A DNA stretch of 64,000 bases from Alphaproteobacteria bacterium (GTDB lineage: Bacteria > Pseudomonadota > Alphaproteobacteria > Rhizobiales > Xanthobacteraceae): the NCBI GenBank assembly GCA_005884765.1, contig VAZV01000145.1:1-64000 (forward strand). Reading direction: 5' to 3'. Made by a program: the position numbers and the translations under genes. Shown piece by piece: positions 42,595 through 62,312 of this stretch (the first letter of the stretch is position 1; each line of letters opens with the position of its first letter). The notes below the pieces were generated by a model, which was not told the origin of the DNA, did not search any database, and worked only from the letters and a program-made list of their open reading frames with translations.

Positions 42595-42612
42595 AGCGCG
42601 CGACGAGAGTGC

Positions 42613-45068: not shown

Positions 45069-45191
45069 GCCAATAGCAGACATCACCAGGTGCGCGCGAG
45101 CATGCAGGGCAAGCCCAAGCGGGTTGGCCGTCGTTCAAATTGGAACAAGATCGGGAAACACGGGCACGCCTATGAGCCGACGCCCGAGCCG

Positions 45192-45623
45192 TCAACGCGC
45201 GGCGTTGTAGACATCACGTAGGACGTTCGTCTCAAGCTCCAGATCCTCCAGTCGATGCTTGACTACATCGCCGATGCTGATGATACCAACAAGGTTGCCG
45301 TCGCGCAGAACGGGCATGTGGCGCACGCGATGGCGGGTCATCAGGCTCATCACGTGAGAGACAGTGTCGGTCGGGGAGACGGTGATCACGCCGTGTCGCA
45401 TGATTTCGCTCACAGGCATCGACCCGGCTGTCTCGCCATAGCGAGAAAATGCATCAACGATTTCACGTTCGGAAATGAGACCAAGAACTGCGTTCCCACT
45501 CGTCACCACGAGAGCGCCAATATTCTTTGCGCGGAGCCAGCCCGCCGCGCTCTTGATATTGGCTTCCGGACCTATTGTTGTGACGTCGGTGCCCTTCCGC
45601 CTCAGAATCCTTTCGATGGACAT
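45192..45623 (-). CDS. CBS-domain pair protein
   Basis: A 143-residue protein made of two CBS domains (residues about 8-62 and 75-132), ligand-sensing modules that bind adenosyl compounds. Motifs are IKSAAGWLRAKNIGALVVTS, VLGLISEREIVDAFSRYGE, then VSEIMRHGVITVSPTDTVSH and GIISIGDVVKHRLEDL. GGAGG lies six bases before the ATG; the longer frame to 45695 is not needed. CBS proteins of this type are often seen in stress or low-oxygen clusters, but no FixK-type box precedes this one. The group II intron lies 124 bases downstream. Confidence 0.9.
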   Translation of the reverse strand: MSIERILRRKGTDVTTIGPEANIKSAAGWLRAKNIGALVVTSGNAVLGLISEREIVDAFSRYGETAGSMPVSEIMRHGVITVSPTDTVSHVMSLMTRHRVRHMPVLRDGNLVGIISIGDVVKHRLEDLELETNVLRDVYNAAR

Positions 45624-45826
45624 AGCCACCTCCATGGTGTGGCCCAGCCGCCTATCGCGTTGATTTGCGTGGCAGTGCCGGTCTCGCCCCCGCAATTGGG
45701 GCGCACGCCATGACGCCGTTCTCCTCTATGAGGAGCATTAGCATATCATATCGGCGGCAAGCAGTCAGCCAGCATCGGGGACCGTGGAACCGATCAGTCG
45801 TTGGCAAACTGGTGCGTGACCGGTTC

Positions 45827-45922
45827 GGGTCATTCGCGCCGTTTTGACCGTGGGCCGCTCACTTCCGGTCTTCCCCGATTAACGGACATCTTCAGAACCG
45901 GTCGGCATGTCTCAAACGTGCC
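45827..45922 (+). repeat. Dispersed intergenic repeat, copy 2
   Basis: A 96-base block matching 40783-40878 over its full length, with the same CTTCCGGTCTTCCCCGATTA core. It lies between the atpB-like gene and the CBS gene. Confidence 0.75.
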
Positions 45923-45979
45923 ATTTCCGGACCTATCGGCAACACGTCCTGAGGTGTGGGTGGAAATTCCCCGGGCGGT

Positions 45980-46735
45980 TCAGTGTCCTGGATGAATAGC
46001 GTCGTTGAGATAGATGCAGGTAAGGATGGCAAACACGTAAGCCTGCAGGAACGCGACCAGAAGTTCGAGCGCGGTCATCGCAACCGTCAACGTGAGCGGT
46101 AGTATGCCGCCGATCCAACCGATCGCGCCAAGCGAGGTGCCGAGCAGCGCAACGAATCCGGCGAACACCTTGAGCGTGATGTGGCCGGCCAACATGTTGG
46201 CAAACAGACGCACGCTGTGTGAGAGCGGCCGCGTTAGGAAGGAGATGATTTCGATCACGACGACAAGTGGCAGGATGTAGATCGGAATGCCCGAGGGCAC
46301 GAAGAGCCTAAAGAATTTCAGGCCGTTCCTGTAGAAGCCGTAGATTACAACCGTGAAGAACACGAGCAGCGCCAATGTGGCAGTAACGATGATGTGGCTC
46401 GAGACCGTGAAGGTGTAGGGAATGATGCCGATCACGTTTGAGACTAGGATGAACATGAACAGTGAGAACACTAGCGGGAAGAACTTCATCCCATCCGCGC
46501 CGGCGTTGGAGCGGATCATAGAGGCCACGAACTCGTAGCTCACTTCGGCCATTGATTGGAAACGCCCGGGAACCAATTGCCGGCCTGCAGCGCCACCCAC
46601 CATCAGCAAGCAAATTGCTGCCACCGAGACCAACATGTAGACGGACGAATTGGTGAAGTAGATGGCCTGATTTCCGATCTGGCCGATTTTGAAGAGGTTG
46701 TCGATATTGAACTGGTGAATTGGATCGAGAGTCAT
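45980..46735 (-). CDS. atpB: F0F1 ATP synthase subunit a, isolated copy
   Basis: A complete 251-residue subunit a of ATP synthase. The essential arginine is in the [14 protein letters not shown] motif, with helices visible in [33 protein letters not shown] and [16 protein letters not shown], and the typical carboxy end [15 protein letters not shown]. No atpI, atpE or atpF gene is adjacent, which is abnormal: the canonical operon places them together. The gene is therefore probably a second, isolated copy. The start at [10 protein letters not shown] is preferred over one four codons upstream. Confidence 0.9.
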
Positions 46736-46839
46736 GCGCGGTTCCATGTCAAGCGGCCCAGCCGCTAGGCGAATTCGGCATTAGCGAACGCGAGGTTATA
46801 GAAGCAGTCTTTCAGATTCCACCGAAAAGGCGTAGTTCT

Positions 46840-47045
46840 CCGAGCCGAGCTTTCGGCCAAGCGGCTGGAGGTCCTTAAGGATACGTTTCCGAGCTTGAGC
46901 AAGATTGCCATGCTGTGGAACGCAGACGACCTTGGAATGACCTTGCGCTACAGATCGGCCGAAACGGCAGCGCGGACGCTGGGTCTCGAAGTACAGCCGC
47001 TTGGCGTGCGGGAGCCGGAGGATTTCGCTGCCGCGTTCGCCGCCC
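46840..47045 (+). pseudogene. ABC_sub_bind-type substrate-binding protein, internal fragment
   Basis: Plus-strand codons from about 46840 read AELSAKRLEVLKDTFPSLSK, IAMLWNADDLGMTLRYRSAE and TLGLEVQPLGVREPEDFAAA. This is the central section of the tryptophan/tyrosine-type ABC substrate-binding protein family (ABC_sub_bind). The amino lobe with its signal peptide and the carboxy lobe are missing, and no ATG matches. It is a remnant beside the atpB copy. Confidence 0.7.
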
Positions 47046-47134
47046 GAAGCGTACTTGGGGAAGCGTACTTGGGAAAAGGCTTCGGGATTGCCTGCGCCGT
47101 AAGGGTACTCGTCCACTCATCGGCCGACTTCAGT

Positions 47135-48355
47135 CTACTTTTGGGCGTTGGAGAAAGCCGTTTCGAGCACTTCGCCAATCGGTTGCCACGTGCGGCCGTC
47201 GAATTGAACTAGTCGTAGGTGTTTGATCGGCCGAAAGTTCCAAGGTCCAGTGCTGATTTTGATCCCAGGTAGCAAAATGGAGCCTTGGTAGTTTTCGAGG
47301 GACTCTGCTTGCTTCATGACGTTCTCGCGAGATAGGTCATTGCCGCACTGTTTGAGCACTTGGGCCAATGTCTCGGCGGCCGCGTAGCCGAAGACGGCGG
47401 CACTGTCGTCTTTGCCTCCGGCCCGATTGTATTTGTCAACAAATGCCTGCCAGTCCTTGGTGGCTTGTTCGTCCTTCCAAGCCGGATCATTGGCATCCTT
47501 CAAGAAGGCGGCTGTAATTACGCCCAAGGCGTTTTCCAAGCCGGCAGGCTTTAGCACCGTCGCAATCGACGAAGCCATATAGTTCGTTATGAACACAGGA
47601 TGCCAATTGAGATCCGCCGCTTTTCGGATTACTTTCGCAGCGTTTGCAGGCACTCCTGCAAATACAAAAATCTCGGCTCCTGATCGCTTTAAGACCGATA
47701 CGTGCGTGTCCAGATGCTCATCTGCGATATCGTACGCAATATCGACCCTGATCATCCGGGCGATGTCACCGAGCCCGTCTTCCAACCCCTTGAATAGTTC
47801 TCGACCGAATTGATCGTTCTGCCAAAGAGCTACAATCCCTTTTCCGGGGTAGGACGCCTGTATGTAGTTGGCGTAGATGCGCCCCTCTTCCCGAATTGAG
47901 GGCTGCCAACCCATTGTCCACGGGAACAGCGATGGATCGCTCAGATGGTCGTCTCCGGAGGCGACAAAGAGTTGAGGAATTTGCTTATCGTTCAAGTATG
48001 TGCGAACGGCAAAGTTTCCCGGAGTTCCGAAAGAACCGAACATCAAGAGCACGTTGTCTTTCTCGATAAGATCGCGCGCAAGGTCTAGGGCGGCCGCCGG
48101 ATCGGATTTGTCATCATATGAGATAAAGCGCACCTTACGGCCGTTGATCCCGCCACGCTCGTTGATCATCTCAAAATACGCTGCTTCGGCTTTCCCAATC
48201 GCTCCGAAGACCTCCAAACTCCCGCTATATGGCATAACATTCCCGATGCGAATTTCAGTGTCGGTCACGCCTTGTTCACGCACTTGCTCCGAGATCGCGC
48301 TCAATGACGTAAGCGCTAAGAGAATAGCAATCAGCGTTCGGACCCAAGTTTGCAT
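47135..48355 (-). CDS. Leu/Ile/Val-type ABC transporter substrate-binding protein
   Basis: A 406-residue periplasmic binding protein. Signal peptide WVRTLIAILLALTSLSAIS is followed by the binding lobe: VTDTEIRIGNVMPYSGSLEV, INERGGINGRKVRFISYDDK, LMFGSFGTPGNFAVRTYLN and a hinge region. This is the LivJ/branched-chain type; in rhizobia such proteins bind amino acids, amides, aromatic acids or other small molecules, so the ligand is open. No LivH/M/G/F genes are adjacent. A FixK-type box lies 68 bases before the start. Confidence 0.9.
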   Translation of the reverse strand: MQTWVRTLIAILLALTSLSAISEQVREQGVTDTEIRIGNVMPYSGSLEVFGAIGKAEAAYFEMINERGGINGRKVRFISYDDKSDPAAALDLARDLIEKDNVLLMFGSFGTPGNFAVRTYLNDKQIPQLFVASGDDHLSDPSLFPWTMGWQPSIREEGRIYANYIQASYPGKGIVALWQNDQFGRELFKGLEDGLGDIARMIRVDIAYDIADEHLDTHVSVLKRSGAEIFVFAGVPANAAKVIRKAADLNWHPVFITNYMASSIATVLKPAGLENALGVITAAFLKDANDPAWKDEQATKDWQAFVDKYNRAGGKDDSAAVFGYAAAETLAQVLKQCGNDLSRENVMKQAESLENYQGSILLPGIKISTGPWNFRPIKHLRLVQFDGRTWQPIGEVLETAFSNAQK

Positions 48356-48416
48356 CGGATGAGCTTAATTACAAAAGAGTGCAGCCAGATTTCAAGACAT
48401 ATTGGAGGCGCTCAGC

Positions 48417-48430
48417 TTGATTTAGATCAA
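48417..48430. promoter_or_regulatory. FixK/FNR-type box before the binding-protein gene
   Basis: Exact TTGAT-TTAG-ATCAA, centred about 68 bases before the start at 48355. Confidence 0.75.
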
Positions 48431-48485
48431 ACGCCAAGAGATTGACGGGTGACCGAAGCAACGTCCTTGCCAAAAGCAACGCCAA

Positions 48486-49733
48486 CTAGGGTGGCGGGCG
48501 CTCCCAGTCGATGAATTCAACTTTGTCAGTAACGTATTGTCGCGGACCGAGAAAAACGACGACTCGCAGGCCATCCGTCACATAGGGATCAAATCCCAGG
48601 TTTGTGCGGGGATTGGTTGGGCTTGATAAACCCACGCCGCGCGCGAACCCGAACCGGTAAGCTTCGCCGGTCAACAAGAGATCCTGTAGAAGATAATAAC
48701 GATCTTGATCTACCTCGGGGCTGATCCTGTGCGTGGTGAATGACCAGCTTTGCGTCGTCAGCTTCGTTCCAATGTCGCGACTGATCTGCCCCACCCAGAC
48801 ACCTTGAGCCTCGACGGTGAATGGCGCGCGCCATACACGCAAATGATTGCGTAGGCTGATGTTGTTACGAGCCTTTTGCAAGGCAATGTCTTGTGGTCGC
48901 CCAAAAACGTAAAGCGGGCTAATCGGCGAGGTCGTATACTCCGTTCCGAATATAAAAGCGCTGATCGTTCTCAGTACGCTGTGAATATCGAGCGGCTCAT
49001 CAAGCCGCCATCCCCGTTCGATGAACGGGAAGATTGCGTCCGCGCCGTTGCCGACGATCACAAGGTTAAGCGGATCACCTGATCTGTTACTCTCTTTATT
49101 AGACGTACAGCAAGGCAGTGCCTCCAGCTTGGCGCGCAGGCCCGCGAGATCGATGTTCTCGCCGGCAGAAGGCAGGGCGTTGAAATCGACATTTTGCGCA
49201 GCATAGAGTTTGCTGCTCAGCTGTATCACGAAACGAAACTCGAACCGCTGACCAAGGCTGACAAAGCCAGCACGAACAAACTTCGCGCCACCCTCGCGAT
49301 GCGTCAGAACAAATCCCGAGGCGTTCTGGCCGGGGGCAATCACGTCAGGCATGGCTTCCCGTGCGAACAACAATTCCCTCTCTCTGTCGGCCTCGCCAGA
49401 CCACCACGCTCGAAATATTCGTGACGCCTCCGGCGGCGTGTAATAGTCCGCATCGGTCGTAGCAGGCAGGTAGTATAGCATTCTATCGCTATCGTTTTTG
49501 ACACTAAACCATACGGCTTGCATGCCCTTGTCAGCCAGTGAAACGCCAAAGAAACGGCTGCTCTCTTCATCGCCGAGCACCGCCGCGCGCACGGTCACCT
49601 GACCCTGCAGCTGTGCGGTCGCGCGCGACTCGAAAGCGTCGCGGCCGGATGGATCGGGCGGCGTTTTGGTACAGCCGCTGCAAGCAAGCAAGACCACCGA
49701 TACGATCGGAAACCATCTAAAAAACGCGCCCAC
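48486..49733 (-). CDS. Lipoprotein with LssY-type carboxy domain
   Basis: A protein of about 415 residues. The GTG start at 49733 (after AAGGAG) gives a lipoprotein signal (FFRWFPIVSVVLLACSGC) with lipobox Leu-Leu-Ala-Cys; the TTG 27 bases upstream is a poorer start. The carboxy part resembles the LssY C-terminal domain: GDPLNLVIVGNGADAIFPFI, RGWRLDEPLDIHSVLRT, SPISPLYVFGRPQDIALQKA and VWVGQISRDIGTKLTTQSW. Function is unknown; in other bacteria this domain follows phosphatases. With the GTG start the FixK-type box at 49797 is 70 bases upstream, the usual distance here. Confidence 0.78.
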   Translation of the reverse strand: MGAFFRWFPIVSVVLLACSGCTKTPPDPSGRDAFESRATAQLQGQVTVRAAVLGDEESSRFFGVSLADKGMQAVWFSVKNDSDRMLYYLPATTDADYYTPPEASRIFRAWWSGEADRERELLFAREAMPDVIAPGQNASGFVLTHREGGAKFVRAGFVSLGQRFEFRFVIQLSSKLYAAQNVDFNALPSAGENIDLAGLRAKLEALPCCTSNKESNRSGDPLNLVIVGNGADAIFPFIERGWRLDEPLDIHSVLRTISAFIFGTEYTTSPISPLYVFGRPQDIALQKARNNISLRNHLRVWRAPFTVEAQGVWVGQISRDIGTKLTTQSWSFTTHRISPEVDQDRYYLLQDLLLTGEAYRFGFARGVGLSSPTNPRTNLGFDPYVTDGLRVVVFLGPRQYVTDKVEFIDWERPPP

Positions 49734-49796
49734 TCTGATTGGACTCCTTGAGGGCTGCAACTGGACTTGCGGTTAGCTGCGCGAGCTTGATCTCGC

Positions 49797-49810
49797 TTGA
49801 TTTGAATCAA
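49797..49810. promoter_or_regulatory. FixK/FNR-type box before the LssY-type lipoprotein gene
   Basis: Exact TTGAT-TTGA-ATCAA, centred about 70 bases before the GTG start at 49733. Confidence 0.75.
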
Positions 49811-49912
49811 GCTCCCGACCGAAACTCCATTCCCTGCTTTTGGTGGCAATGCTAGTATGCGGCTCAATTTCCGCTCCCGGTCAAAAGCGAAGGTTTAACC
49901 GCGTACCGACGG

Positions 49913-49972
49913 CTTCCGCTCTACCCATATAAACAGACATCGTCACTGTGCGTCGGCAGGTCCGAAAGGTGC
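49913..49972 (+). repeat. Dispersed intergenic repeat, copy 3 (divergent)
   Basis: About 60 bases share CTTCCG-, CTACCC, AAACAGACATCGTC and GTCGGCA- segments with the repeats at 40783 and 45827, in the same order and with the same ending GGTGCC. Several substitutions make it the weakest of the three. Confidence 0.5.
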
Positions 49973-50038
49973 CAACGGAAGTGATCGGGCCGAGCCCGTA
50001 AGTGTGATTCGAGATGGTCTTGCCGCCTTGGGCGCCCT

Positions 50039-50170
50039 CTAGAATCCGAAAAGCCGAACCGCAACAATCCCCGCGACCAAAATGGCTAGAGCTGAGACGA
50101 CGACGGTTACGCCGGAAATACGGCGAGCCGGCTTTGGCCTATCGAGCATTCTGCCGCGCCAGTGAGTCAT
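50039..50170 (-). CDS. Small membrane protein (43 aa)
   Basis: A 43-residue frame starting MTHWRGRMLDRPKPARRIS, a basic head, followed by one hydrophobic helix GVTVVVSALAILVAGIVAVR and the end LFGF. The head-then-helix layout matches the other small membrane peptides of this region. The upstream frame gives a longer protein, but the ATG at 50170 follows a purine-rich site. Function unknown. Confidence 0.5.
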   Translation of the reverse strand: MTHWRGRMLDRPKPARRISGVTVVVSALAILVAGIVAVRLFGF

Positions 50171-50413
50171 AAACGGGCCTTTATCCTGCGGAGAGCATGG
50201 CCTTGCCCGTGCCCGCTTGTCTGGCGGCCACCACGAAACGGCGTGACCCAAACTCTAGGTTTGGTCTTGAGGCCCCAAGATTCTTCCTCCGCAAGCAGCC
50301 GGCGCTTATCGACCCGATTTGGATCACGCTCGCCCTCGGCCTATCCGGCTGTATTTCGGAACCAGTCGCAGCTTTGTGTTGTGCGGCTGGTCCTTGAAGC
50401 ACAACCAAAATGT

Positions 50414-50707
50414 CTAGTAGCAGGGTGGATAGGGGTAGTATCCGCACCGTTGCCCGCCATAGTAAGCGCCGGCAGCAGCTCCGGCGGCGGCGGCACCGAC
50501 GCCTACCGCCACTCCACGGCGTACGGCCGCTCCACGGTAAACGCGTCCGCGATACACACCACCGCGGTGAACACCAGCGTGGTGAACACCACCGCCGTGA
50601 TACCCGCCACCGCCTCTTCGAGCGAAGGCATCCGTTGGAACAGTCGCAAGACATGCGATCGCCATGATAACGGAGGCAGCAAGCGAAACACTGGTTCGAT
50701 GTGACAT
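50414..50707 (-). CDS. Glycine-rich secreted protein, relative of the 42.3 kb gene
   Basis: A 97-residue exported protein. Signal peptide MSHRTSVSLAASVIMAIACL ends near TDAFA before RRGGGGYHGGGVHHAGVHRG. A run of Gly, His, Val and Arg (VYRGRVYRGAAVRRGVAVGV) is followed by a glycine zipper (GAAAAGAAAGAYYGG) and RCGYYPYPPCY. It is similar in design to the 42259-42594 protein (RGGGRGGGF then zipper then cysteines). It lies on the minus strand, after a longer open frame that I judge upstream noise. Confidence 0.72.
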   Translation of the reverse strand: MSHRTSVSLAASVIMAIACLATVPTDAFARRGGGGYHGGGVHHAGVHRGGVYRGRVYRGAAVRRGVAVGVGAAAAGAAAGAYYGGQRCGYYPYPPCY

Positions 50708-51102
50708 GATTGATCTCCCCATTCCCTGGTGAGATGCGGGCCGGCCATTAACAGCGCGTATGACGAAGTCGCCCGCGTGGTGGTGAAATCGACGAGAACT
50801 CCAAGCGGTTCCCAGAAAGCTGTGCCTTGTATCGGGACCGGCGAGCTGCCACTTCCGGAACTCACCCACGCACCGAAGCATCCATGTCATGAACGCGCAC
50901 GATCAATTTGTGCGGGATACGCGTCGCTTTGAAAGGCCAGAAGGCATGGCCCAGTTGCCATTTTCCAGTCATATTTGAAAAACGGGTTGTTGCACCCAAG
51001 GCACAGAATCTCAGCCGCTAGTCGCTTAGAAATCGAGATAAATCAGATGGATAGATGCTTTTGATGGCGGAGAAGGAACCGCCGAGCCTAGTCCCGCCTT
51101 CA
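50708..51102. other. No supported gene
   Basis: Open frames are short and lack ribosome sites. It is the promoter region of the secreted-protein gene on one side and the 3' region of the stand-alone receiver on the other. I see no FixK-type box here; a half-like TGG-ATCA at 50320 lies downstream and is not convincing. Confidence 0.35.
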
Positions 51103-51534
51103 CTACGCCGGCCCCGCGGCCGCACGCGCGATCAGCTCGATCAGCAACTTCGCTGGGAACGGTTTCGTCAGGTAAGCAATGCATCCTGACTCCATCGCGG
51201 CCGTGCGAATGGCATCGCTATCGTTGGCGGTGATGTAGATCACCGGCAGTGAGATCCCCGCCTCGGCCAATCGATACCTGATCTCTATTCCTGACTCGCC
51301 GTCCAACTGGATGTCGAGAACAACGCAGATCGCACCGCCGAAATCGTCGTGAGCTTGAAATGCCTTTGCGGATTGAAATAGCAAACTATCGTAGCCGTAT
51401 TCTCTGAGCAGCCGCTTAAGGCCTCTGAGAATGCCCGGGTCATCGTCGACCACAAAGACGAGTTTTCGATTCGACAAGATCAATCCCCCTGCTCCTCGGC
51501 ATCGGGCAACAGAGCAGTTCGTCAATCGACGCAT
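51103..51534 (-). CDS. Stand-alone receiver-domain response regulator
   Basis: A 143-residue protein that consists only of a CheY-like receiver. Motifs are VVDDDPGILRGLKRLL with the acidic pocket, the phospho-acceptor aspartate in VVLDIQLDGESGIEI, PVIYITANDSDAIRT and the lysine in YLTKPFPAK. There is no output domain. A later TTG (LSNRKLVFV) is the alternative start. The neighbouring FixJ-type regulator at 51698 is on the same strand upstream, and the palindrome at 51645 lies in between, so this gene has its own promoter. Confidence 0.88.
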   Translation of the reverse strand: MRRLTNCSVARCRGAGGLILSNRKLVFVVDDDPGILRGLKRLLREYGYDSLLFQSAKAFQAHDDFGGAICVVLDIQLDGESGIEIRYRLAEAGISLPVIYITANDSDAIRTAAMESGCIAYLTKPFPAKLLIELIARAAAGPA

Positions 51535-51644
51535 CCGTAGCCGTTTCGTAAGCTAGATGAATGATATACTCAGCATAGCTTTTTGATTTGGGCTGACAGG
51601 CGTCAATAGCTTCGTGTGCAGTATGTTCCGCGCAATTCCACTTG

Positions 51645-51666
51645 CTATTGTCCTTCAGGACAATAG
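51645..51666. promoter_or_regulatory. Perfect palindrome CTATTGTCC-N4-GGACAATAG
   Basis: A 22-base perfect inverted repeat (nine bases each side, four between) lies about 120 bases before the receiver gene (51534). The same motif with small changes recurs before the fixK-like gene at 52595. It looks like the operator of a dimeric regulator, probably one of this module's own; I do not recognise a published consensus. Confidence 0.65.
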
Positions 51667-51697
51667 TTCCAACGAATCTTGCGATATCTCAATTCGG

Positions 51698-52336
51698 TCA
51701 GCCCTGCTGAACTTCGCCGGAGAGGCGTTGGAGCACGCCGAGCCGTGCGGCGATGGAGACCAGCTCGGCAAGCGATTGAACACCCATCTTCTCCATCACC
51801 TTGTAGCGGTGAGCCTTGATGGTGCGTTCGGTCGTTCCCAATCGCTGCGCGATCTGCTTGTTGATCTTGCCCTGAACGACAAGATCGAAGACCTGATGCT
51901 CACGAGGCGTCAGAGATTCAAGCAGGGTGCGAAGCGCATTCAGCCTATGCGTGGTAGCGCGCAAGCTCTGATGATGGGCCATCGCTCGCTCGATGGCGCT
52001 GAGGATTTGTTCTGAGGTGACCGGCTTGGTCAGAAAATCCTCAGCGCCCGCCTTGATGGTCTTCACGGTGGTGCGCACATCCGCAAAGCCCGAGAGAAAG
52101 ATGATGGGGAGCGTAGACCCGAGCTCGGCGAGCCGCGTCTGCAGCTCCGGACCGCTTAATCCCGGCATTCTGACATCAAGGAGAATGCAGCCGGGTCCAT
52201 TGTCGTCGGGCAGACGATCGAGCAGTTGCTGCGCGGAGGGATAAGTCGCCACCTCGTAGCCGGCCTTCTTGAGACGGCGTTCGAGTGCTGTCCGGAGCGA
52301 CGCGTCATCGTCGACGATATGAATCGTGCCGAACAA
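51698..52336 (-). CDS. FixJ-type response regulator (receiver + LuxR HTH)
   Basis: A 212-residue response regulator. The receiver has the acidic pair HIVDDDASLRTALER, phospho-acceptor CILLDVRMPGLSGPEL, PIIFLSGFADVRTTV and the lysine in FLTKPVTSEQ. The carboxy HTH is LTPREHQVFDLVVQGKINKQ followed by IAQRLGTTERTIKAHRYKV. This is the FixJ/NodW/TodT type, which in rhizobia switches on fixK under low oxygen. No cognate kinase is adjacent; the FixL/NodV-type kinase at 20382 is one candidate. The fixK-like gene lies divergently, 400 bases away. Confidence 0.92.
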   Translation of the reverse strand: MFGTIHIVDDDASLRTALERRLKKAGYEVATYPSAQQLLDRLPDDNGPGCILLDVRMPGLSGPELQTRLAELGSTLPIIFLSGFADVRTTVKTIKAGAEDFLTKPVTSEQILSAIERAMAHHQSLRATTHRLNALRTLLESLTPREHQVFDLVVQGKINKQIAQRLGTTERTIKAHRYKVMEKMGVQSLAELVSIAARLGVLQRLSGEVQQG

Positions 52337-52594
52337 GCAGGTCTCCTATGGTCAAGACGGCAGCAATGAAGTCAAAAATTCCTTAAGCTTGTCCGGTGGA
52401 ATGCCCGGATCTTTATCGACGTCTCGCCAGCCATCAGCCCGCGGAATTCCATAGGCATCGTATCCGAGCCGGGCCGGAGGCTTGAGATACCGTAACATCC
52501 GATTGTGACCCGCGGAACGTGCACGCTGGCACTGCGACAGCTGATCGCAGTCCCGGGCATGCTGCGCTTGCGAATATCTGCCCAACAGCGTGCA
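52337..52594. other. No confident gene (possible 48-codon leader frame)
   Basis: A minus-strand frame (52352-52498) would encode MLRYLKPPARLGYDAYGIPR and end 15 bases before the FixJ-type start. It has no ribosome site and I do not call it. The rest is the divergent promoter region. Confidence 0.3.
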
Positions 52595-52625
52595 TTGTAC
52601 CTTAGGACAATGTCCCAAGGGACAA
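52595..52625. promoter_or_regulatory. Two overlapping copies of the GGACAAT palindrome before fixK-like gene
   Basis: Site one (52595-52612) is ATTGTAC-CTTA-GGACAAT, 15 of 18 positions like the one at 51647. Site two (52612-52625) is TGTCC-CAAG-GGACA, sharing bases with the first; their centres are 15 bases apart. They lie about 120-130 bases before the fixK-like ATG. Presumed regulator: the adjacent FixJ-type protein or an autoregulating factor. Confidence 0.6.
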
Positions 52626-52735
52626 TGGCTCTCAAGGCAATAGTGCGCCGCACCCACACTGTCGTACATGATCTCGACAGGGGCGGCGGCTCCCTGACGG
52701 ACGCGAACAAGTCCAATCAAACAGGGAGACAATCC

Positions 52736-53407
52736 ATGTTTGTCAATATCAACGCCACTCCGGCCGCCCGGCCAAGATTTCTCGGCGAACACGATGACCA
52801 GTCCCGCGCATCAGTCCTCGTGACGGAATTCAAATACATCCGGGGCGCCGAGATTTTTGGCGAGGCCGAGCCCGCGGAATATGTGTACCAGGTCGTCGAA
52901 GGCGCCGTGCGGAGCTACAAGCTGCTCTCCGACGGCCGTCGCCAGATCGGCGCATTCCACCTTGTGGGCGACATTTTCGGTCTGGAGAACGGCGCGATGC
53001 ACCGATTTACAGCTGAAGCGATCGTCGATACGAGCGTGCGGCTGGCGAAGCGTATCAATCTTGAGCACGCCGCGAGAGCGGACGCGTTGGTCTCACGCGA
53101 GCTCCTGAGCATGACGACAAGCAACCTGCAGCACGCCGAGAATCACATGCTGCTTCTGGGACGCAAGACCTCGCTTGAGCGGGTCGCGGCATTCCTGCTC
53201 GAAATGGACGGTCGAGTGTCAGCCGCGGGCGTGATGGCGCTGCCGATGAGCCGCCGCGATATCGCGGACTATCTTGGGCTCACGCTCGAGACAGTATCCC
53301 GCGCGCTCTCAAGTCTTCACGAGAAGGGATTCCTCGAGTTCCTCGGCCAAACCCAGCGGCAGATCGTCCTGCGCAATCGATCCGAACTCGCCAAGCTGGA
53401 TCTATAG
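52736..53407 (+). CDS. FixK-type Crp/Fnr-family transcriptional regulator
   Basis: A 223-residue Crp/Fnr-family activator. The amino cyclic-nucleotide-like barrel (VYQVVEGAVRSYKLLSDGRR, then AFHLVGDIFGLENG) leads to a dimer helix and a winged HTH (MSRRDIADYLGLTLETVSRA). The recognition helix contains E-T-V-S-R, the residues that read TTGAT half-sites. I see no cysteine in the whole sequence, so it cannot hold an FNR-type iron-sulfur cluster; it is FixK-like, its activity controlled by expression. TTGAT-N4-ATCAA sites are abundant in the surrounding genes. Start is ATG 52736, after AGGGAG. Confidence 0.92.
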   Translation: MFVNINATPAARPRFLGEHDDQSRASVLVTEFKYIRGAEIFGEAEPAEYVYQVVEGAVRSYKLLSDGRRQIGAFHLVGDIFGLENGAMHRFTAEAIVDTSVRLAKRINLEHAARADALVSRELLSMTTSNLQHAENHMLLLGRKTSLERVAAFLLEMDGRVSAAGVMALPMSRRDIADYLGLTLETVSRALSSLHEKGFLEFLGQTQRQIVLRNRSELAKLDL

Positions 53408-53848
53408 CTCGTCGGAACGATCGGGCTCCGATGTGTATTTGCCGATCGCCTTGATCAGTACCTCGAAGATGAGCGCCGTGGACCAGCCGAACATCAAGAC
53501 GCCATTCATGGCCGTCATCGGCCCGAGCAGGCGCCATTTCGCCAGCGGCGTCACGTCGCCATAACCCAAGGTCGTGTAGTTGACGAACGCGAAATAGACC
53601 AGGTTGGCGTTATCAGGGGCCGCATTCACGATCGCATAGGCGACAGACCAGACAAAGACTTCCGTCGTATGTGCGGCCATCAGCACGAGGGAGGTCGCGA
53701 TCATCACGCCGGCCAGATACAGCGGGGGGCTCGATGTGCTTCGGCGCGCCGCGGCGCGCGCGATCCGGATGGCGGCTATCGTGACCATTGCGTGAACAAC
53801 GATATTGAGCGCGCTGACCGCTGAGCCCACCAGTAGTTGAACGAGCAT
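53402..53848 (-). CDS. Pore-loop ion channel (two-helix, K+ channel type)
   Basis: A 148-residue membrane protein. Membrane helices appear in SAVSALNIVVHAMVTIAAIR, LYLAGVMIATSLVLMAAHTT and MNGVLMFGWSTALIFEVLIK, and a pore helix with the selectivity filter TTLGYGDVTPLAKWR is between them. Such a filter is the signature of potassium channels. The start MLVQLLVGSAV at 53848 was chosen because the box at 53907 is then 65 bases away, the usual distance. It is convergent with the fixK-like gene, overlapping it by six bases. Confidence 0.85.
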   Translation of the reverse strand: MLVQLLVGSAVSALNIVVHAMVTIAAIRIARAAARRSTSSPPLYLAGVMIATSLVLMAAHTTEVFVWSVAYAIVNAAPDNANLVYFAFVNYTTLGYGDVTPLAKWRLLGPMTAMNGVLMFGWSTALIFEVLIKAIGKYTSEPDRSDEL

Positions 53849-53906
53849 GCCGGTTCCTCGAGCTGCCGCACTGCGGCAGACATGATCTTGAGGTTGGTCC
53901 GGACCA

Positions 53907-53920
53907 TTGACGCAGATCAA
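53907..53920. promoter_or_regulatory. FixK/FNR-type box between channel and CoA-transferase genes
   Basis: TTGAC-GCAG-ATCAA, one base off consensus, centred about 65 bases before the channel start (53848) and 63 bases before the CoA-transferase start (53977). It can serve both directions. Confidence 0.65.
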
Positions 53921-53976
53921 AGGGCCGCGTGATGGCGGTCGCAACATTCTAGAGCACGATGATCGGAGCCGCCAGC

Positions 53977-54624
53977 ATGAGGAACGTCTCCACAGAAGAA
54001 GCTGTCGCCATGATCCCCAACGGCGCGAAGCTGATGGTCGGTGGTTTCATGGGTGTCGGCACGCCGGAGCGGCTGATTGACGAGCTCGTCCGGCAGCACA
54101 AGTCCGAACTTTTGCTCGTTTGCAACGACGCAGCGGTGCCAGGCAAGGGAGTCGGTAAGCTGATTGACGCAGCGCTCGTGTCGACACTGACCACTAGCCA
54201 TATCGGTCTGAACCCGAAGGTGCAGGCGCAGATGATGGCGAACAAGATCGCGGTCGATCTGGTGCCCCAGGGCACGCTGGTCGAGCGCATCCGCGCCGGC
54301 GGTTGCGGACTAGGCGGCGTGCTCACCCCGACCGGCGTCGGAACGATCGTTGAGGGGGACAAGCGTCAGATCGCGATCGGCGGCAAGACCTTCCTGGTCG
54401 AGACGGCGCTTCGCTCGGATTTCGCCCTGATCCATACATTCCTGGCCGACTATCTCGGCAACCTCGCTTACGCGCTCACCGCGCGCAATTTCAATCCCGT
54501 GATGGCGATGGCCGCCGACACCGTCATTGTCACGGCAGAGCACATCGTTCCGGTCGGCGTGATCGCTCCGGATCACGTCATGACCCCAGCGCCTCTTGTC
54601 GACTATCTCGTCGCGAACGGGTGA
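53977..54624 (+). CDS. Acyl/acetate CoA-transferase, subunit A
   Basis: The alpha subunit of a family I CoA-transferase of the acetoacetate/acetate or succinyl-CoA:3-ketoacid type. Motifs are MIPNGAKLMVGGFMGVGTPE, RLIDELVRQHKSELLLVCND, the glycine-rich ERIRAGGCGLGGVLTPTGVG and ETALRSDFALIHTFLADY. The start MRNVSTEEAVAM is favoured by GGAG eight bases upstream; an ATG six codons earlier is possible. Subunit B follows after 4 bases. Together they move CoA between short-chain acyl donors and acetate or ketoacids; the precise substrate cannot be read from sequence. Confidence 0.92.
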   Translation: MRNVSTEEAVAMIPNGAKLMVGGFMGVGTPERLIDELVRQHKSELLLVCNDAAVPGKGVGKLIDAALVSTLTTSHIGLNPKVQAQMMANKIAVDLVPQGTLVERIRAGGCGLGGVLTPTGVGTIVEGDKRQIAIGGKTFLVETALRSDFALIHTFLADYLGNLAYALTARNFNPVMAMAADTVIVTAEHIVPVGVIAPDHVMTPAPLVDYLVANG

Positions 54625-54628
54625 AAAC

Positions 54629-55279
54629 ATGGACGCACAAACGCTGATCGCCCGACGGGTCGCGCTTGAACTGCGCTCAGGAAATCTCGTCAATCTCGGC
54701 ATCGGTATTCCGACTCTCGTCGCAAACTACCTTCCGCCGGGACTGAACGTCTTCTTCCAGTCGGAGAACGGGCTGATCGGCACGGGGCCGATCCCCGAGC
54801 AGGGCATGGCCCATCCTCTGCTGACCGATGCCGGGGGACGCCCGATCAGCGCGCTACCCGGCGCATCGACCTTTGACAGCGCGATGTCGTTCGGGTTGAT
54901 CCGTGGCGGGCACGTCGATGTCACCGTGCTAGGCGGCCTGCAGGTCGACGCCGAAGGTCATCTCGCCAACTGGATGATCCCCGGCAAGATGGTGCCGGGC
55001 ATGGGCGGCGCGATGGATTTGGTGACGGGAGCCAAGCGCGTGATCGTCGCTATGCAACACGCGGCCAAGGGAAAGTCGAAGATCGTCCAGAAGTGCAACC
55101 TTCCTCTTACGTCCTCGCGGTCGGTCGATCTTGTGGTCACCGATCTCGCCGTAATTGGCTTCCCTGACGGGCGGATCACGCTGCTCGAGACGGCACCAGG
55201 CATCAGCGTGGCTGAGGTTGTGGCGGTTACCGAGGCAGATCTCCTGATCCCGGACACCGTTCCACAAATGAGATTCTAG
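54629..55279 (+). CDS. Acyl/acetate CoA-transferase, subunit B
   Basis: The beta subunit, with the catalytic glutamate in FQSENGLIGTGPIP and the glycine-rich NLGIGIPTLVANYLPPGLNV near the start. Other family motifs are GASTFDSAMSFGLIRGGHVD and VLGGLQVDAEGHLANWMIPG. The gene begins four bases after subunit A. The carboxy end (GISVAEVVAVTEADLLIPD) is normal. A gap of 31 bases separates it from the MaoC-type hydratase gene. Confidence 0.92.
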   Translation: MDAQTLIARRVALELRSGNLVNLGIGIPTLVANYLPPGLNVFFQSENGLIGTGPIPEQGMAHPLLTDAGGRPISALPGASTFDSAMSFGLIRGGHVDVTVLGGLQVDAEGHLANWMIPGKMVPGMGGAMDLVTGAKRVIVAMQHAAKGKSKIVQKCNLPLTSSRSVDLVVTDLAVIGFPDGRITLLETAPGISVAEVVAVTEADLLIPDTVPQMRF

Positions 55280-55310
55280 GAATAGCTGCAGAGCGAACGC
55301 GGCACACAGC

Positions 55311-55769
55311 ATGAGAATATTCGATGGTTTCGACGAGATCAGGTCCGCCGTCGGCCAGGAAATCGGCGCGAGCGAGTGGGTCGAGATTACCCAGGATCGC
55401 ATCAATATGTTCGCGGAAGCAACCTGCGACGAGCAGTGGATCCATGTCAATCAAGCGAGAGCGGAAAAAGAGCTTCCGGGTGGCAGGACCATCGCACACG
55501 GGCTCCTCTCCCTCAGCCTCGCGCCGATGTTCGTTCGCTCCGTGATGGGCCTCAAGGGCCTGAAGAATACGCTCAACTATGGCGCCGACCGGATCCGCTA
55601 CCTCGCACCGGTTCCGGCAGGTTCACGAATAAGAGGCCGCACCATGATCGCGGCGGCCGAGGAGGTTCCGCCCAATGGGTTGCGTGTGAACTACCGCATG
55701 GTGATCGAGATCGAGGGAGGGCAACGACCAGCTTGCGTCGCCGAGCTGATCGCCCTGCACTATCGCTGA
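55311..55769 (+). CDS. MaoC-like (R)-specific enoyl-CoA hydratase
   Basis: A 152-residue single hot-dog-fold hydratase. The catalytic motif is FAEATCDEQWIHVNQARAEK (Asp and His of the MaoC site), then GGRTIAHGLLSLSLAPMFVR and RYLAPVPAGSRIRGR. Such enzymes make (R)-3-hydroxyacyl-CoA, the precursor of polyhydroxyalkanoates, or the reverse. It is the third gene of the CoA-transferase operon and is convergent with fabI, whose stop lies 27 bases beyond. Confidence 0.9.
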   Translation: MRIFDGFDEIRSAVGQEIGASEWVEITQDRINMFAEATCDEQWIHVNQARAEKELPGGRTIAHGLLSLSLAPMFVRSVMGLKGLKNTLNYGADRIRYLAPVPAGSRIRGRTMIAAAEEVPPNGLRVNYRMVIEIEGGQRPACVAELIALHYR

Positions 55770-55796
55770 GCTTCTCTTGTCGACTCGCAAGCAACC

Positions 55797-56588
55797 TCAA
55801 TCAATAATATGGTACCCACCGTCGATGTACGTGACATCGCCGGTAATGAGCTTTGCACCATCGAGCGCGAGAAATGCGGTCGCGGCACCGACGTCATCGA
55901 TGCTGACCAGGCTTCGAGCCGGCGCCTTGCTCTGCGCCTTGTCCAAGAGTTCATCGAACTCCGGAATGCCTGACGCGGCGCGCGTCGCCAATGGGCCGGG
56001 CGAGATCGCATGGACGCGAATGCCCTTGGGACCGACCTCCGCGGCGATATAACGGACCGCAGCTTCGAGCGCGGCCTTTGCAACCCCCATCACATTATAG
56101 TTCTCCACGACCATCTGGCTGCCGTAATAGGTCATCGTGAACAGGGTGCCGCCATTCTTCATCAACGGCTCTGCGAGATGCGCCATGCGCATGAATGACC
56201 AGCAGGACACATCCATGGTCTTGAGAAAGCCGTCGCGCCCGACGTCAATGACTCGCCCGTGCAACGCCTCCTTCGGCGAGAAGGCGATCGAGTGCAGCAG
56301 GAAATCCAGTTTGCCCCATTCCTTCTCGATCCGTTCGAAGACCTGCTCGGTCTGACCTTCCACGGTCACATCGAGCGGCATGAAGATCGGCGCTTCAAGC
56401 GCCTGGGCAAGCGGCTCGACAAACCTCTTTGCCCGATCGTTCAGATATGTCACCGCGAGGTCCGCGCCCAACGCCCGAAACGCCTTGGCGCATCCCCAAG
56501 CGATCGACTGATCGTTGGCAATGCCCACGATCAGTCCCTTCTTGCCCTTCAGGGCGACCTTCGTCTCGGGGAACACTGGAATATTCAT
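55797..56588 (-). CDS. fabI: Enoyl-ACP reductase (FabI type)
   Basis: The NADH-dependent enoyl-acyl-carrier-protein reductase of fatty-acid synthesis. Motifs are [20 protein letters not shown] (nucleotide site), [35 protein letters not shown] with the catalytic Tyr and Lys six residues apart, [19 protein letters not shown] and [12 protein letters not shown]. The 263-residue length is right. The ATG overlaps the ackA stop by four bases, so it is translated with ackA. This copy is not in a fab operon; FabI, Pta and AckA genes linked to DUF3141 form an unusual module that may replace or supplement the housekeeping enzyme. Confidence 0.93.
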
Positions 56589-57796
56589 GACGCGATCTCA
56601 CGTTTGGCATTTGAGTTCGTGGCCCAGAGGACCGACAGCGTGTGCTCGGCAATCATCCGTTCCTCGTCCGTGGGAATGACGTAGACGGGAACGCGGCTGC
56701 CTCTCTGCGATATCTTCAGCGCGTGTTTGGCGTTTTCAGTAGGATCGAGAGAGACACCTAGCCATGCGAGCTTCTCGGCTACGCAGGCACGGATAGCGTT
56801 GGAGTTCTCCCCGATCCCTGCCGTGAAAACGAACGCATCGATACCCTGTAGTGCGGCCGCGAGCATTCCGGCTGAAAGCCCAACTCTGTAAGCGAAATAG
56901 TCGATGGCAAAGCTGGCACGCGGATCGCGGCTCTCCAGCAGCTCGCGCATGTCATTGCTTACGCCGGACAATCCTTTCAATCCGCAATCGCGATAAAGAA
57001 AGTCCTGCACTTTTCCGGCATCCATCCTCTTTTCCGACATCAAATAGAGCACCACGCCGGGATCGATCTGGCCCGGTCGCGTTCCCATGGGCAAGCCATC
57101 CAGCGCGGTAAAGCCCATGGTGCTTTCAACGCTGCGGCCACCCTTCAAGGCGCACATCGAGGCGCCGCTTCCGAGATGCGCAACGATCACGCGCCCCGCG
57201 GTGATTTCGGGCGCGACCTTCGGCAATGTTCTCGCGATGTATTCGTACGAGAGACCATGGAAACCGTAACGCCTGACTCCCTCTTCGTAGAGCTGATAGG
57301 GGATGGCGTACTGGTCCGCGACCCCGTCATGGCCGCGATGAAAAGCAGTGTCGAAGCAGGCGACCTGCGGAAGCGTCGGGAAGTTCGCAAGGAGGGATTT
57401 GATCGGCGCGAGATTGTGGGGCTGATGAAGCGGTGCCAGCGCAATGTATCGCTCGAGGCGCGCGACCAGCCCATGATCGACCGGAATGGGCCGGTCATAG
57501 TCGGGACCACCATGAACCACACGATGTCCGACCGCCATCGGTGTGATGCGGAGTTCGTCACGAAGCCAGGAACCCGCCACCATCAATGCGGCCGAAACAT
57601 CCGCAACCGCCTCGATCGGATAGGCGCGATCGGCTAGCGCGTCACCCTTCGCCCCGGTCGCGCGGAGCCGCGGCCGGCTTCCAATCCCGTCCATCTGCCC
57701 CTTGAGCTGCCGCTGGAGCCCGCCGTCTCCATCGACCGCAAAGACCTGAAACTTCACGCTCGACGAACCTGCATTGACGACAAGGATCGTATCCAT
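56585..57796 (-). CDS. ackA: Acetate kinase (acetate/propionate kinase family)
   Basis: The kinase that makes ATP from acetyl-phosphate. The start [20 protein letters not shown] is followed by [63 protein letters not shown] and the end [20 protein letters not shown]. All conserved active-site segments are present. The upstream in-frame codons to 57865 lie inside the pta gene and are unlikely to be used. Pta and DUF3141 precede it on the same strand, fabI follows. Confidence 0.95.
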
Positions 57797-57801
57797 GGCA
57801 A

Positions 57802-58764
57802 TCACGCGGCAGCGCTGATGGCCCGGCGGCGACGCGCGTCTGCATAGAGCGTCGCTACCGCGCACGAAGCCATGCGGGCTCTTGGCGTGTCCGCACGGGA
57901 GGTCAGCACGATCGGAACACGGGCGCCAAGAACGATCCCGGCCCCGTCGGCTTTTGCGAAATAGGCCAAATTCTTGGCCAGCATGTTGCCGGATTCAAGG
58001 TCGGGCACCACGAGGATCTGGGCACGTCCCGCGACTTCCGACTTGATGCCCTTAATCCTCGCTGCTTCGGTGTCGACCGCATTGTCGAACGCCAGCGGCC
58101 CATCGAGCAGGCCGCCGGTGATCTGCCCGCGATCGGCCATCTTGCAAAGCGCCGCAGCCTCGACGGTGGACGGGATCTTGGAGGTGACGGTCTCCACCGC
58201 TGACAAAATGGCCACTCTGGGAAGCGTGCCGAAGCCGGTATGAGTGAACAAATCGATGGCGTTTTGAATGATGTCGCGCTTGCAATCGAGATCCGGGAAA
58301 ATGTTGATGGCGGCGTCGGTGATGAAGACGGTCTCGGCATAGGTCGGCACATCCATTACGAACACATGGCTGATGCGCCGGTCAGTCCGAAGGCCCGTTG
58401 CTTTCGCCGTCACGCTGCGCATCAGTTCGTCGGTATGCAGGCTGCCCTTCATCAATATTTCGCCCTTGGCCGCGTGGATGAGCTCGACCCCCTTCGCGGC
58501 GGCCTCTTCGCTATGCTCGGCATCGACGACCTCGTAGCCCGAGATATTGATGTTATGCTTGGCGGCGACGCTTGCGATCTTCGACGCGGGACCGACGAGG
58601 ATCGGTTTGATGATTCCCGCTTCCGCCGCGTCGGCTGTGCCTCGTAGCGAGGTCTCGTCGCAGGGATGCACCACGATCGTCGTGACCGCCGGGACAGCCT
58701 TTGCTGCCGCAATCAGCCGGTCGTATTTTGAAGGCCGTGCTTCACCTGCCGCTTGTGTGCTCAT
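57802..58764 (-). CDS. pta: Phosphate acetyl/butyryltransferase, single-domain
   Basis: A 320-residue phosphotransacetylase of the short type (Pta/Ptb family, comparable to the carboxy part of bifunctional enoyl-CoA hydratase/phosphate acetyltransferases). Motifs are [59 protein letters not shown] and [13 protein letters not shown], then [13 protein letters not shown] and [20 protein letters not shown]. It converts acyl-CoA to acyl-phosphate. The ackA start is five bases beyond its stop. Substrate could be acetyl or butyryl; acetyl is favoured because ackA follows. Confidence 0.9.
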
Positions 58765-58778
58765 TGCCTGGCTCCCGG

Positions 58779-61001
58779 TTAAGAGGCCTTCGCCTGCGGA
58801 TCGAAAGGGCCTGTATTCGCCTGCGAGGTGGAATCTTCGGTCACTCCAAACAGCTCGGTCACGCGGCGCAGCCGCTTTGCGACTTCGCCGGAAATTTCGG
58901 CACTTGCGGAAAGCACATCGCGGATCACGGCGAGGCCGGAACGGCGCGCCTCTGCATCCCGCGGCAGCATTTTCGGAATAGCCGTCAGGCTTGCTTCCTG
59001 GTCGAGCAGCAGCATGAAGAACTGCTCGCGCACCATGGATTTGAACTCAGCCAGCGTTAGCCGCGGTCCTTTGTCATTCGTCCGTGCTCGACGTAACGCT
59101 TCGAGGCTACGCTCATCGACCATACCGCGCGGGGCGCCGACATAGAGTAGACCGCGGATAACGCACTCCCTCAAGCCGCCGCTCGGAATCCGCGATTTTA
59201 GTTCCGCGATGCGTGCGTCGAGACGCCTACGATGTTCCTGCGACATCTCTGGCGTCGGCGACGGATCCGCCTCAGGATCGATCCCGACCGCGGCCTGCAG
59301 CGCAGGCGAGCCATAGACCGAGAGAAAGATTTTTTCGCTGAGCGCTTCTTGCGCGTCGCGCCACTGATCGAGCGCGCCGACAATACTTTTCGAAACGGTC
59401 TCCTGAAACGCGAGGAACGCATTGTCGGATGTTGCTGGCTTGCGGTGCTCACGGATTTTTTCCGCGGTCGTCTCGATCGCCTTTGTCAGCGGATTTTGGC
59501 CCGCGAGCGCCTCATATTGCACGCGGAGCGGATGCCACTGACGGGCCAATTCCGCCATCTGCGGCGTCGCCATGGTCTTGATCCAGGGCTGCACAAACTT
59601 GCGATAGTTGGCAAGATTGATCTCCGACACGCGGGCGGCGGTCGCAAAGCGCCGCTCATCTTCGAGGCTGTTGCCGCCCATCGCTCGGATGTCGTCGAGC
59701 GAGCGCTGCTCGCAGCGCATGATCCATTGTCCGGACGCCATATCCGGATTGGCCGTATCGGCGGATTTGGCCTCAAACGTCGCTTCATAGAGTCCGGGTG
59801 GCAGCACATCGATCAGATCGATGTTGCTTGAAAACTCGCTGTGCTCCTTCTTCGCAACACCGCCCGAAACGAAGATTCCCAGATGGCCGACTGTCTCATG
59901 CACCGTATAGACGATCGTCTGCCCGTATGCCCTGATCTCGTCGACATCATGGTAGAGATCAAGGATCCAGCCAAGCGCCTGCTGCGGCGGCGTGATGTTG
60001 TCGCCCTTTGAGCAGAATACGACGATCGGTGAGCGGATGCTGCGTAGATCGACGACTTGGCCGTCGGAAGTCTTGATACAGCCCGTCGCGAGACGGTTGC
60101 CGACAAAGAGCTCATCGACGATGAACTGGATTTCTTCGGCATTCAGGTTGACGTGTCCGCCCCACCATTTTTCGAATTCGAGATAGCGCTCCGCTTCGGT
60201 ATCGACCCTCGAGTACACGTTGTATTGCTTGGTCCAGAGTGTGTTCGAGGGATTCATGTTCTCGAAGTTCTGAACCAGCCAGGCTCCGTCAAACTTGCCG
60301 GCGCCGAGATCGCTGGTGAGTGCAGTCAGCCAGCTCCCTCCCAGGAGGCCACCGGAATAGCGCATCGGATTCTTGCCATGGACGCCGGCCCAGTAGGATA
60401 GCGGGGCGCCCGCAACGATGATCGGGCCGAACAGCTCTGGCCGCAGCGAAGCCAGAATCATCACCGCCCAGCCGGCCTGGCAGTTGCCGATCACGCACGG
60501 CTTGCCATCGGCCTCGGGATGCAATGCAATCACTTTCTCGAGGAACACCCCCTCGGCGCGGGCAATGTCCCCGATCGTCTGTCCTGGCATGGGTTCCGGC
60601 ATGAATCCGACGAAATAGCAGGGATGGCCCGCCTTCATCGCCACGCCGATCTCGCTGTCGGCCTTGAATCCCCCGATACCGGGGCCATGCCCAGCGCGCG
60701 GATCGACGACGACGAAGGGACGCCGTTTCAGATCGATCTCGACTCCCTTTGGCGGCGTTATTCTCACCAGACCGTAATTGACGGGCCGCTCGAGAGTTCT
60801 GCCGTCAACGACCAGCTCCACACTGTAGTCGAGGACATGCGGCACGGTTTCGGCCAAATGTTCGCGGTATTGCTCGCCGCGCCGGCGCATCACATCCAGG
60901 AACAGCACACTGCGCTGTCCCGCATCGACCATGTATTCCATGGCGGAGGCAAAGAACGAGGGCGGAGCACCGTCCGGGATTTTTGGCAGTTCCATTGACA
61001 T
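58779..61001 (-). CDS. DUF3141 alpha/beta-hydrolase, PhaC-like
   Basis: A 740-residue protein of the DUF3141 family. An alpha/beta-hydrolase core is visible: GVEIDLKRRPFVVVDPRAGH, then the nucleophile elbow IGNCQAGWAVM with a cysteine (Gly-x-Cys-x-Ala-Gly), the aspartate in VVFCSKGDNITPPQQAL and the histidine in YTVHETVGHLGIFVSGG. This Cys-Asp-His set is like PHA synthases. The long carboxy half is helical and Arg-rich, of unknown use. It begins the pta-ackA-fabI operon, with the box at 61064 about 70 bases upstream. Suggested role, inferred: acyl transfer or polymer formation in low-oxygen metabolism. Confidence 0.88.
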   Translation of the reverse strand: MSMELPKIPDGAPPSFFASAMEYMVDAGQRSVLFLDVMRRRGEQYREHLAETVPHVLDYSVELVVDGRTLERPVNYGLVRITPPKGVEIDLKRRPFVVVDPRAGHGPGIGGFKADSEIGVAMKAGHPCYFVGFMPEPMPGQTIGDIARAEGVFLEKVIALHPEADGKPCVIGNCQAGWAVMILASLRPELFGPIIVAGAPLSYWAGVHGKNPMRYSGGLLGGSWLTALTSDLGAGKFDGAWLVQNFENMNPSNTLWTKQYNVYSRVDTEAERYLEFEKWWGGHVNLNAEEIQFIVDELFVGNRLATGCIKTSDGQVVDLRSIRSPIVVFCSKGDNITPPQQALGWILDLYHDVDEIRAYGQTIVYTVHETVGHLGIFVSGGVAKKEHSEFSSNIDLIDVLPPGLYEATFEAKSADTANPDMASGQWIMRCEQRSLDDIRAMGGNSLEDERRFATAARVSEINLANYRKFVQPWIKTMATPQMAELARQWHPLRVQYEALAGQNPLTKAIETTAEKIREHRKPATSDNAFLAFQETVSKSIVGALDQWRDAQEALSEKIFLSVYGSPALQAAVGIDPEADPSPTPEMSQEHRRRLDARIAELKSRIPSGGLRECVIRGLLYVGAPRGMVDERSLEALRRARTNDKGPRLTLAEFKSMVREQFFMLLLDQEASLTAIPKMLPRDAEARRSGLAVIRDVLSASAEISGEVAKRLRRVTELFGVTEDSTSQANTGPFDPQAKAS

Positions 61002-61063
61002 GCTTGAAATCCCTTGCTGTCTGAATTTTGCAGCTCAGGTTGGCCCCCGCTGTGCGAGCCCCT

Positions 61064-61077
61064 TTGACATAGGTCAA
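61064..61077. promoter_or_regulatory. FixK/FNR-type box before the DUF3141 operon
   Basis: TTGAC-ATAG-GTCAA, symmetric but with C/G at the inner ends. It is centred about 70 bases before the DUF3141 start. Confidence 0.62.
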
Positions 61078-61153
61078 GGGAGACAAGCGGTCACAGGCGG
61101 GCGCACGCTTGCATGCAGACGGTATCTCGCTATTCGGAGACGTCGCAAAAACT

Positions 61154-62254: not shown

Positions 62255-62312
62255 TGCCCACCATCCATCGGCGTTGACCGGCCAGCCTATCGATCCGTGT
62301 CAAACGTCAGGC

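Follow-up and report, generated by a model that had tools for sequence, protein, structure and literature searches.

In rhizobia, regulators of the FixJ family that act on FixK have a central role in life at low oxygen. The 64,000-nucleotide stretch of DNA analyzed here (the window), which belongs to a 110-kb contig (C24) of a 6.65-Mb assembly, contains a FixJ/FixK-type module in which one inverted repeat, ATTGTCC-N4-GGACAAT, recurs at two promoters. The question raised by this arrangement is which protein binds the repeats and which genes it controls. The answer argued for below, which is considered likely from the sequence comparisons, is that the repeats would be operators of the StyR/FixJ-type regulator encoded between them, and that this regulator would act on both the fixK-like gene and the receiver gene.

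Operator Sites and Neighboring Genes

An earlier note on this DNA described a perfect 22-base palindrome before a stand-alone receiver gene, a close copy before a fixK-like gene and a second copy overlapping the latter; all of these elements are present. The single operator (51645..51666, no strand; CTATTGTCCTTCAGGACAATAG) lies between the stop of the FixJ-type gene and the start of the receiver gene. Its two 9-base arms are perfect but its 4-base center is not palindromic, so "9-4-9 inverted repeat" is the more exact name. Upstream of the fixK-like gene, ~110-140 bp before its ATG, the left operator of the pair (52594..52611, no strand) agrees at 15/18 positions and the right one (52609..52626, no strand) overlaps it, with the two centers 15 bp apart. 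Matches to ATTGTCC-N4-GGACAAT start at 51647 (no mismatch), 52594 and 52609 (one mismatch each), and the shorter form TTGTCC-N4-GGACAA (6-N4-6) is exact at 51648 and has two further copies with one mismatch each.

The neighboring genes are, by Pfam, those named beforehand. The receiver gene (51103..51534, minus strand; Response_reg) is given as its longest frame, and its true start is perhaps further in. The FixJ-family response regulator (51698..52336, minus strand) combines a receiver with a LuxR-type helix-turn-helix (HTH), and the fixK-like gene (52736..53407, plus strand) encodes a CRP/FNR regulator of the FixK2 class. This last protein matches FixK2 (4i2o) with 280 bits over 197 residues, the stretch DYLGLTLETVSRALS being identical, and falls below the equivalog cut-off of the NCBIfam Caulobacter FixK model (213.2 of 300); it is the single FixK2-class protein of its own genome at E ≤ 1e-80 (assembly 95.7% complete). 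An open reading frame at 52352-52792 (minus strand) was not taken as a gene, having no Pfam match and only one weak match among 80 loci (37%, L012).

How far such repeats exceed chance depends on the measure. Allowing up to three mismatches, the motif matches the window eight times against 1.90 expected, a number reached in 0/100 shuffles. Perfect 9-4-9 repeats number two against 0.45 expected (20 mononucleotide shuffles), and a lone repeat of this kind is poor evidence by itself; the claim is carried by recurrence at these promoters and by conservation among relatives. A site at 31228 with one mismatch falls inside the coding frame of a small protein and was dropped as a chance match. In the genome search for the motif proposed in the earlier note, the 12-letter core (at most one mismatch) shows no excess across the genome (12 places against 13 for the reversed control). 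Profile sites hardly occur outside the module. With a 57-site profile and 150 of 798 candidates scored, four places were found at E ≤ 10, namely the three window sites and C91:34062 (E 0.08-0.11), ~390 bp before a 102-aa frame that looks H-NS-like. All profile searches scored 150 first-look candidates per genome, so weak sites may have been missed; sites from these loci and the window served to train both the profile and the score matrix, on neither of which the mismatch counts depend. A promoter scan called no promoter at the operator sites, a search of a plasmid collection returned no record spanning 80% of the module, and the motif appears as an operator in no paper among the matches listed by a literature search, to which letters inside figures are invisible.

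Conservation among Relatives

Of the 295 relatives obtained with the fixK-like protein, the best 80 were used, each with flanks of up to 6 kb; the nearest of them are from Bradyrhizobium, and the FixJ-type gene lies upstream of the fixK-like gene in 79/80 loci. One record titled Frankia sp. RB7 (L032) holds a Bradyrhizobium-like module (fixK-like identity 74%), and its label looks wrong.

Loss of the palindromes from orthologous regions had been named as one observation that would refute a shared operator. Phylogenetic footprinting found the sites kept at both promoters and the 15-bp doublet kept as well. All 81 fixK-like upstream regions (window and 80 relatives) contain a site with at most 4/14 mismatches (shuffled sequences, 7.6%), 39/81 contain one with at most 2/14 (shuffled, 0.05%), and in an alignment of these regions conservation peaks at the site columns. 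At a distance of exactly 15 bp, 77/81 regions have another site with a score of at least 5 (control, 1.2%) and 62/81 have one with a score of at least 12 (control, 0.1%); one locus (L021) has three sites in 15-bp steps. Because the loci are related, such counts do not represent independent events.

On the receiver side, 80 regions were counted (79 loci and the window; L081 was left out, its locus having no FixJ-type gene), with the receiver scored as missing when no tblastn match at 1e-8 lay within the locus. The space separating the FixJ-type and receiver genes holds a site with at most four mismatches in 65/71 receiver loci (shuffled, 4.9%), leaving six with no recognizable site before the receiver; after the FixJ-type gene of receiver-less loci, a site stands in 0/9 (p = 2e-8 for the difference). 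At both promoters the half-site closer to the controlled gene is the better conserved.

Extra operator-like sites occur ~2.4 kb after the fixK-like start in L078, L086 and L087, in the last of these ~100 bp before a Gly- and Tyr-rich frame, and ~2.9 kb after it in L018; their scores, that of L018 included, range over 17.0-19.9.

Candidate Binding Proteins

The simplest idea had been that the neighboring FixJ-type regulator binds the sites. The family assignment holds and can be refined, as the protein is nearer to StyR (158.5 bits) than to FixJ (131.3 bits) among solved structures; its top NCBIfam model is FixJ, at 184.9 bits and under the equivalog cut-off of 255. The site has a geometry proposed for this branch: StyR, TodT, TutB and TmoT are described as possibly recognizing ATAAACN4GTTTAT (PMC5874301), an inverted repeat that shares the 6-N4-6 form but has ATAAAC in place of TTGTCC as its half-site. 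The residues listed as StyR contacts are Lys175, Val176 and His179 (PMC5874301), which align with K/A/Y in the window protein (one of three kept) and K/A/H in 76/77 readable relatives. Contact residues that differ in this way from those of StyR would fit a changed half-site. StyR-P is reported to bind several sites cooperatively (PMC2442086). The StyR, TodT and TmoT type also differs in what it controls, a catabolic operon there and a fixK-like and a receiver gene here, with sites overlapping at 15 bp.

Orthologues of the FixJ-type and fixK-like genes occur in the same 28/40 genomes of the genus, the fixK orthologue cut having been chosen after the values were seen (best matches up to 3.4e-90 against 1.1e-83 and weaker). 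At E ≤ 0.5, a cut likewise chosen after inspection, the site profile matches in 24/28 genomes with the orthologues and 0/12 others (p = 3e-7), and at E ≤ 1 in 24/28 against 2/12; the modules of the four unmatched genomes do contain sites, though weaker ones. Near-confinement of the motif to one module argues that its regulator is encoded in that module. A regulator encoded elsewhere, such as another FixJ-family paralogue, is for this reason a quite improbable binder, although genomes of the genus have several such paralogues each and one profile match in the genome of the window, on C91, lies on a different contig. Furthermore, two other paralogue classes carry distinct elements of their own at the equivalent place. 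Five paralogous FixJ-receiver pairs (L161, L166, L172, L173, L174), whose regulators are 43-45% identical to that of the window (two measured), have TTGGCC-N4-GGCCAA or TTGGAC-N4-GGTCAA at the corresponding place. A third class (L155, L156, L165, L168, L175-L203) has a CCTAAGTATGAT-like / AACCTAAGTATGATTTTAC-like consensus after the FixJ-type gene in a 33-locus alignment, the element being absent from some loci, e.g., L180. Thus, the letters of the operator appear to change with the regulator. It counts against the proposed binder that most of the more distant FixJ homologues (down to 43-65% identity) have no such site.

Since the FixJ-type and fixK-like genes occur together, co-occurrence alone cannot separate these two candidates, and none of the 40 genomes has the FixJ-type gene without the fixK-like one. 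FixK2 is, moreover, reported to repress its own gene (PMC9104804), which would suit a FixK-like protein that binds the sites and controls both its own gene and the receiver gene. The letters speak against this reading, which is very unlikely: the FixK-like protein has the DNA-binding stretch DYLGLTLETVSRALS of FixK2, whereas the FixK2 consensus, given as TTGA/C-N6-T/GCAA (PMC9104804), differs from the operators, which read TTG-N10-CAA with other inner letters, and strict FixK boxes are plentiful nearby. Loci in which the genes are separated point the same way. In L163, a FixJ-receiver pair keeps its site with no fixK gene within 3.6 kb of sequence. L163 belongs to the same genome as L081 and holds, beside a receiver, the orthologue of the FixJ-type gene that is missing from the fixK locus of L081; the site is found at both places. 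One genome (G027) has three further fixK copies with the site, 0.25-1.6 Mb from its single FixJ-type gene at E ≤ 1e-70, and another (G012) has one. These four are among 20 fixK-type upstream regions examined (of 30 non-orthologous rows). The remaining 16/20 are without the site: all six in genomes lacking the FixJ-type gene, as binding by the FixJ-type regulator would predict, and, counting against it, ten in genomes with that gene.

That the repeat after the FixJ-type gene is an RNA hairpin (a terminator or processing site) and no operator is extremely improbable: it does follow the FixJ-type stop directly, the window copy folds well (z -2.54) and two variable pairs, if read from the plus strand with G-U pairing permitted, persist in 49/51 and 48/51 relatives, but the genes there lie on the minus strand, where these pairs are kept in only 17/51 and 28/51, no terminator-like site is called at the repeat, its presence tracks the receiver gene and not the FixJ-type stop, and the same element also stands before the fixK-like gene. 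The FixJ-type neighbor is thus the best-supported predicted binder, through a StyR-like protein, a StyR/TodT-like geometry, near-confinement of the sites and their persistence where the genes are unlinked.

A Proposed Circuit

From the sites, their conservation and near-confinement to the module, and the kinship of the proteins, all obtained by computation, we infer the following circuit. A histidine kinase would phosphorylate the FixJ-type regulator, which would then bind the 6-N4-6 site as a dimer. At the fixK-like promoter, two dimers may sit side by side on the overlapping sites, 15 bp apart, and binding would most likely activate the fixK-like gene, the direction of control being a prediction. 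The FixK-like product would in turn act on TTGAY-N4-RTCAA boxes before many of the surrounding genes. The single site would put the receiver gene under the same signal, and by analogy with FixT the receiver probably provides feedback on the kinase or serves as a phosphate sink. The earlier proposal of one circuit for receiver and fixK-like gene is supported at the level of sequence, and the predicted circuit is larger than proposed, with a kinase gene in some relatives and a field of FixK boxes downstream.

The kinase gene is suggested by the relatives. The gap between the FixJ-type and fixK-like genes is 1.5-2.4 kb in 12/79 loci, and the two looked into (L014 and L089) contain a histidine kinase gene that points toward the FixJ-type gene and whose product has a sensor of the ABC_sub_bind type. 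The operators there lie within a divergent kinase/fixK promoter, so that the system may also regulate itself. The window has no kinase gene between the FixJ-type and fixK-like genes. A candidate partner is the histidine kinase at 20382..22274 (minus strand; HisKA + HATPase), which is 42% identical to the L014 module kinase over most of the length. Among 39 matches in its own genome, it alone has an alignment that takes in the sensor region of the L014 kinase; Pfam names its kinase part only. In four genomes that lack a kinase at the module (G310, G311, G289, G314, with G312 left out of this comparison), a relative of the kinase lies at a distance of ~15-18 kb, provided that the contig numbers match the named contigs; the match in G310 is partial.

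The downstream part of the circuit rests on the boxes. The window holds 11 strict FixK boxes (TTGAY-N4-RTCAA) where 0.11 would be expected, at 25975, 26092, 29312, 31644, 33542, 42102, 48417, 49797, 53907, 61064 and 62313 (no strand; span 25975..62326). There are 39 genome-wide against 4 in a reversed control, and 14/39 fall at contig 25975-70334, a 44-kb stretch that includes the module. Among the relatives, 225 boxes occur in the 999 kb of the 80 loci. Eight of the 11 window boxes stand 37-173 bp before mechanically called minus-strand starts. The box at 31644 precedes the start of a small protein by ~60 bp, and that at 42102 is near no called start. The box at 53907 precedes a plus-strand frame (53959) by 52 bp and also falls within the upstream portion of an ion-channel frame. 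Both subunits of cytochrome bd, I and II, are encoded past the right end of the window, and a box stands ~330 bp ahead of subunit I. The FixK-like protein would be expected to act on these boxes, and such boxes, including one near cytochrome bd, make a low-oxygen role of the module likely by analogy.

An Apparent Genomic Island

The module appears to lie on an integrated element. At its left end a tRNA-Asn gene (13787-13861, plus strand) is followed directly by a tyrosine integrase gene (14021-15418, plus strand), after which comes a gene with a relaxase domain (16272-18392, no strand given). On the same strand, ~57 kb away (contig position 71016), the tRNA end recurs as a perfect 22-bp direct repeat, so the tRNA gene, adjacent integrase and far-side repeat that mark an island are all in place. 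All 14 boxes of the 110-kb contig fall between tRNA-Asn and the repeat; the module and 14/39 of the genome's boxes thus seem to share one ~57-kb element. Inside it, a frame at 38864-39745 resembles by eye an IS110-type transposase, and one at 43315-44646 a group II intron reverse transcriptase. There is perhaps an even chance that this is a tRNA-Asn-integrated, possibly mobilizable ~57-kb island with a low-oxygen program and its own regulatory chain: a kinase, a StyR-like regulator whose operators (TTGTCC-N4-GGACAA, in pairs 15 bp apart) would form a new class, a relay of the FixK2 class, receiver feedback and ~14 FixK-box promoters, one of them near cytochrome bd.

Relation to Known Circuits

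The module resembles the rhizobial FixLJ-FixK system in having a FixJ-family regulator ahead of a FixK gene and FixK boxes downstream, and differs from it in operator and sensor. FixJ sites are described as TAAGTAATTTCCCTTA, GTAGTTTCCC and GTAMGTAG (PMC4999443) and also as GTACGTAG (PMC13327599), efforts to define the site having given varying results (PMC4999443). None of these FixJ sites equals TTGTCC-N4-GGACAA, and by direct comparison the window sites are not of the canonical TAAGTA..CCCTTA or GTAMGTAG type. The module-locus kinases scanned here carry an ABC_sub_bind-type sensor. In the hFixL-FxkR-FixKf system of Rhizobium, an alternative regulator likewise stands above FixK, and its consensus, quoted as GTTACA-N4-GTTACA (PMC4999443), also has two 6-base parts 4 apart, although it is a direct repeat with other letters; the likeness concerns the consensus. 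FixT of C. crescentus, reported as a feedback inhibitor of FixL (PMC7078487), is a receiver protein expressed under a FixJ-type system, an arrangement predicted here from the receiver domain and the shared operator.

The comparisons support, at the level of prediction, a new variation on a known circuit, in which a StyR-like member of the FixJ family would be connected through its own class of operator to a receiver and to a relay of the FixK2 class. It would provide a strict, testable operator for the StyR-like branch of the FixJ family, and since paralogous regulators have differing operators at the equivalent place, a recognition code could be derived. The operator would also be linked to a FixK regulon packed on an apparently mobile island, and, if this is true, a recipient of the island would gain regulator and regulon together.
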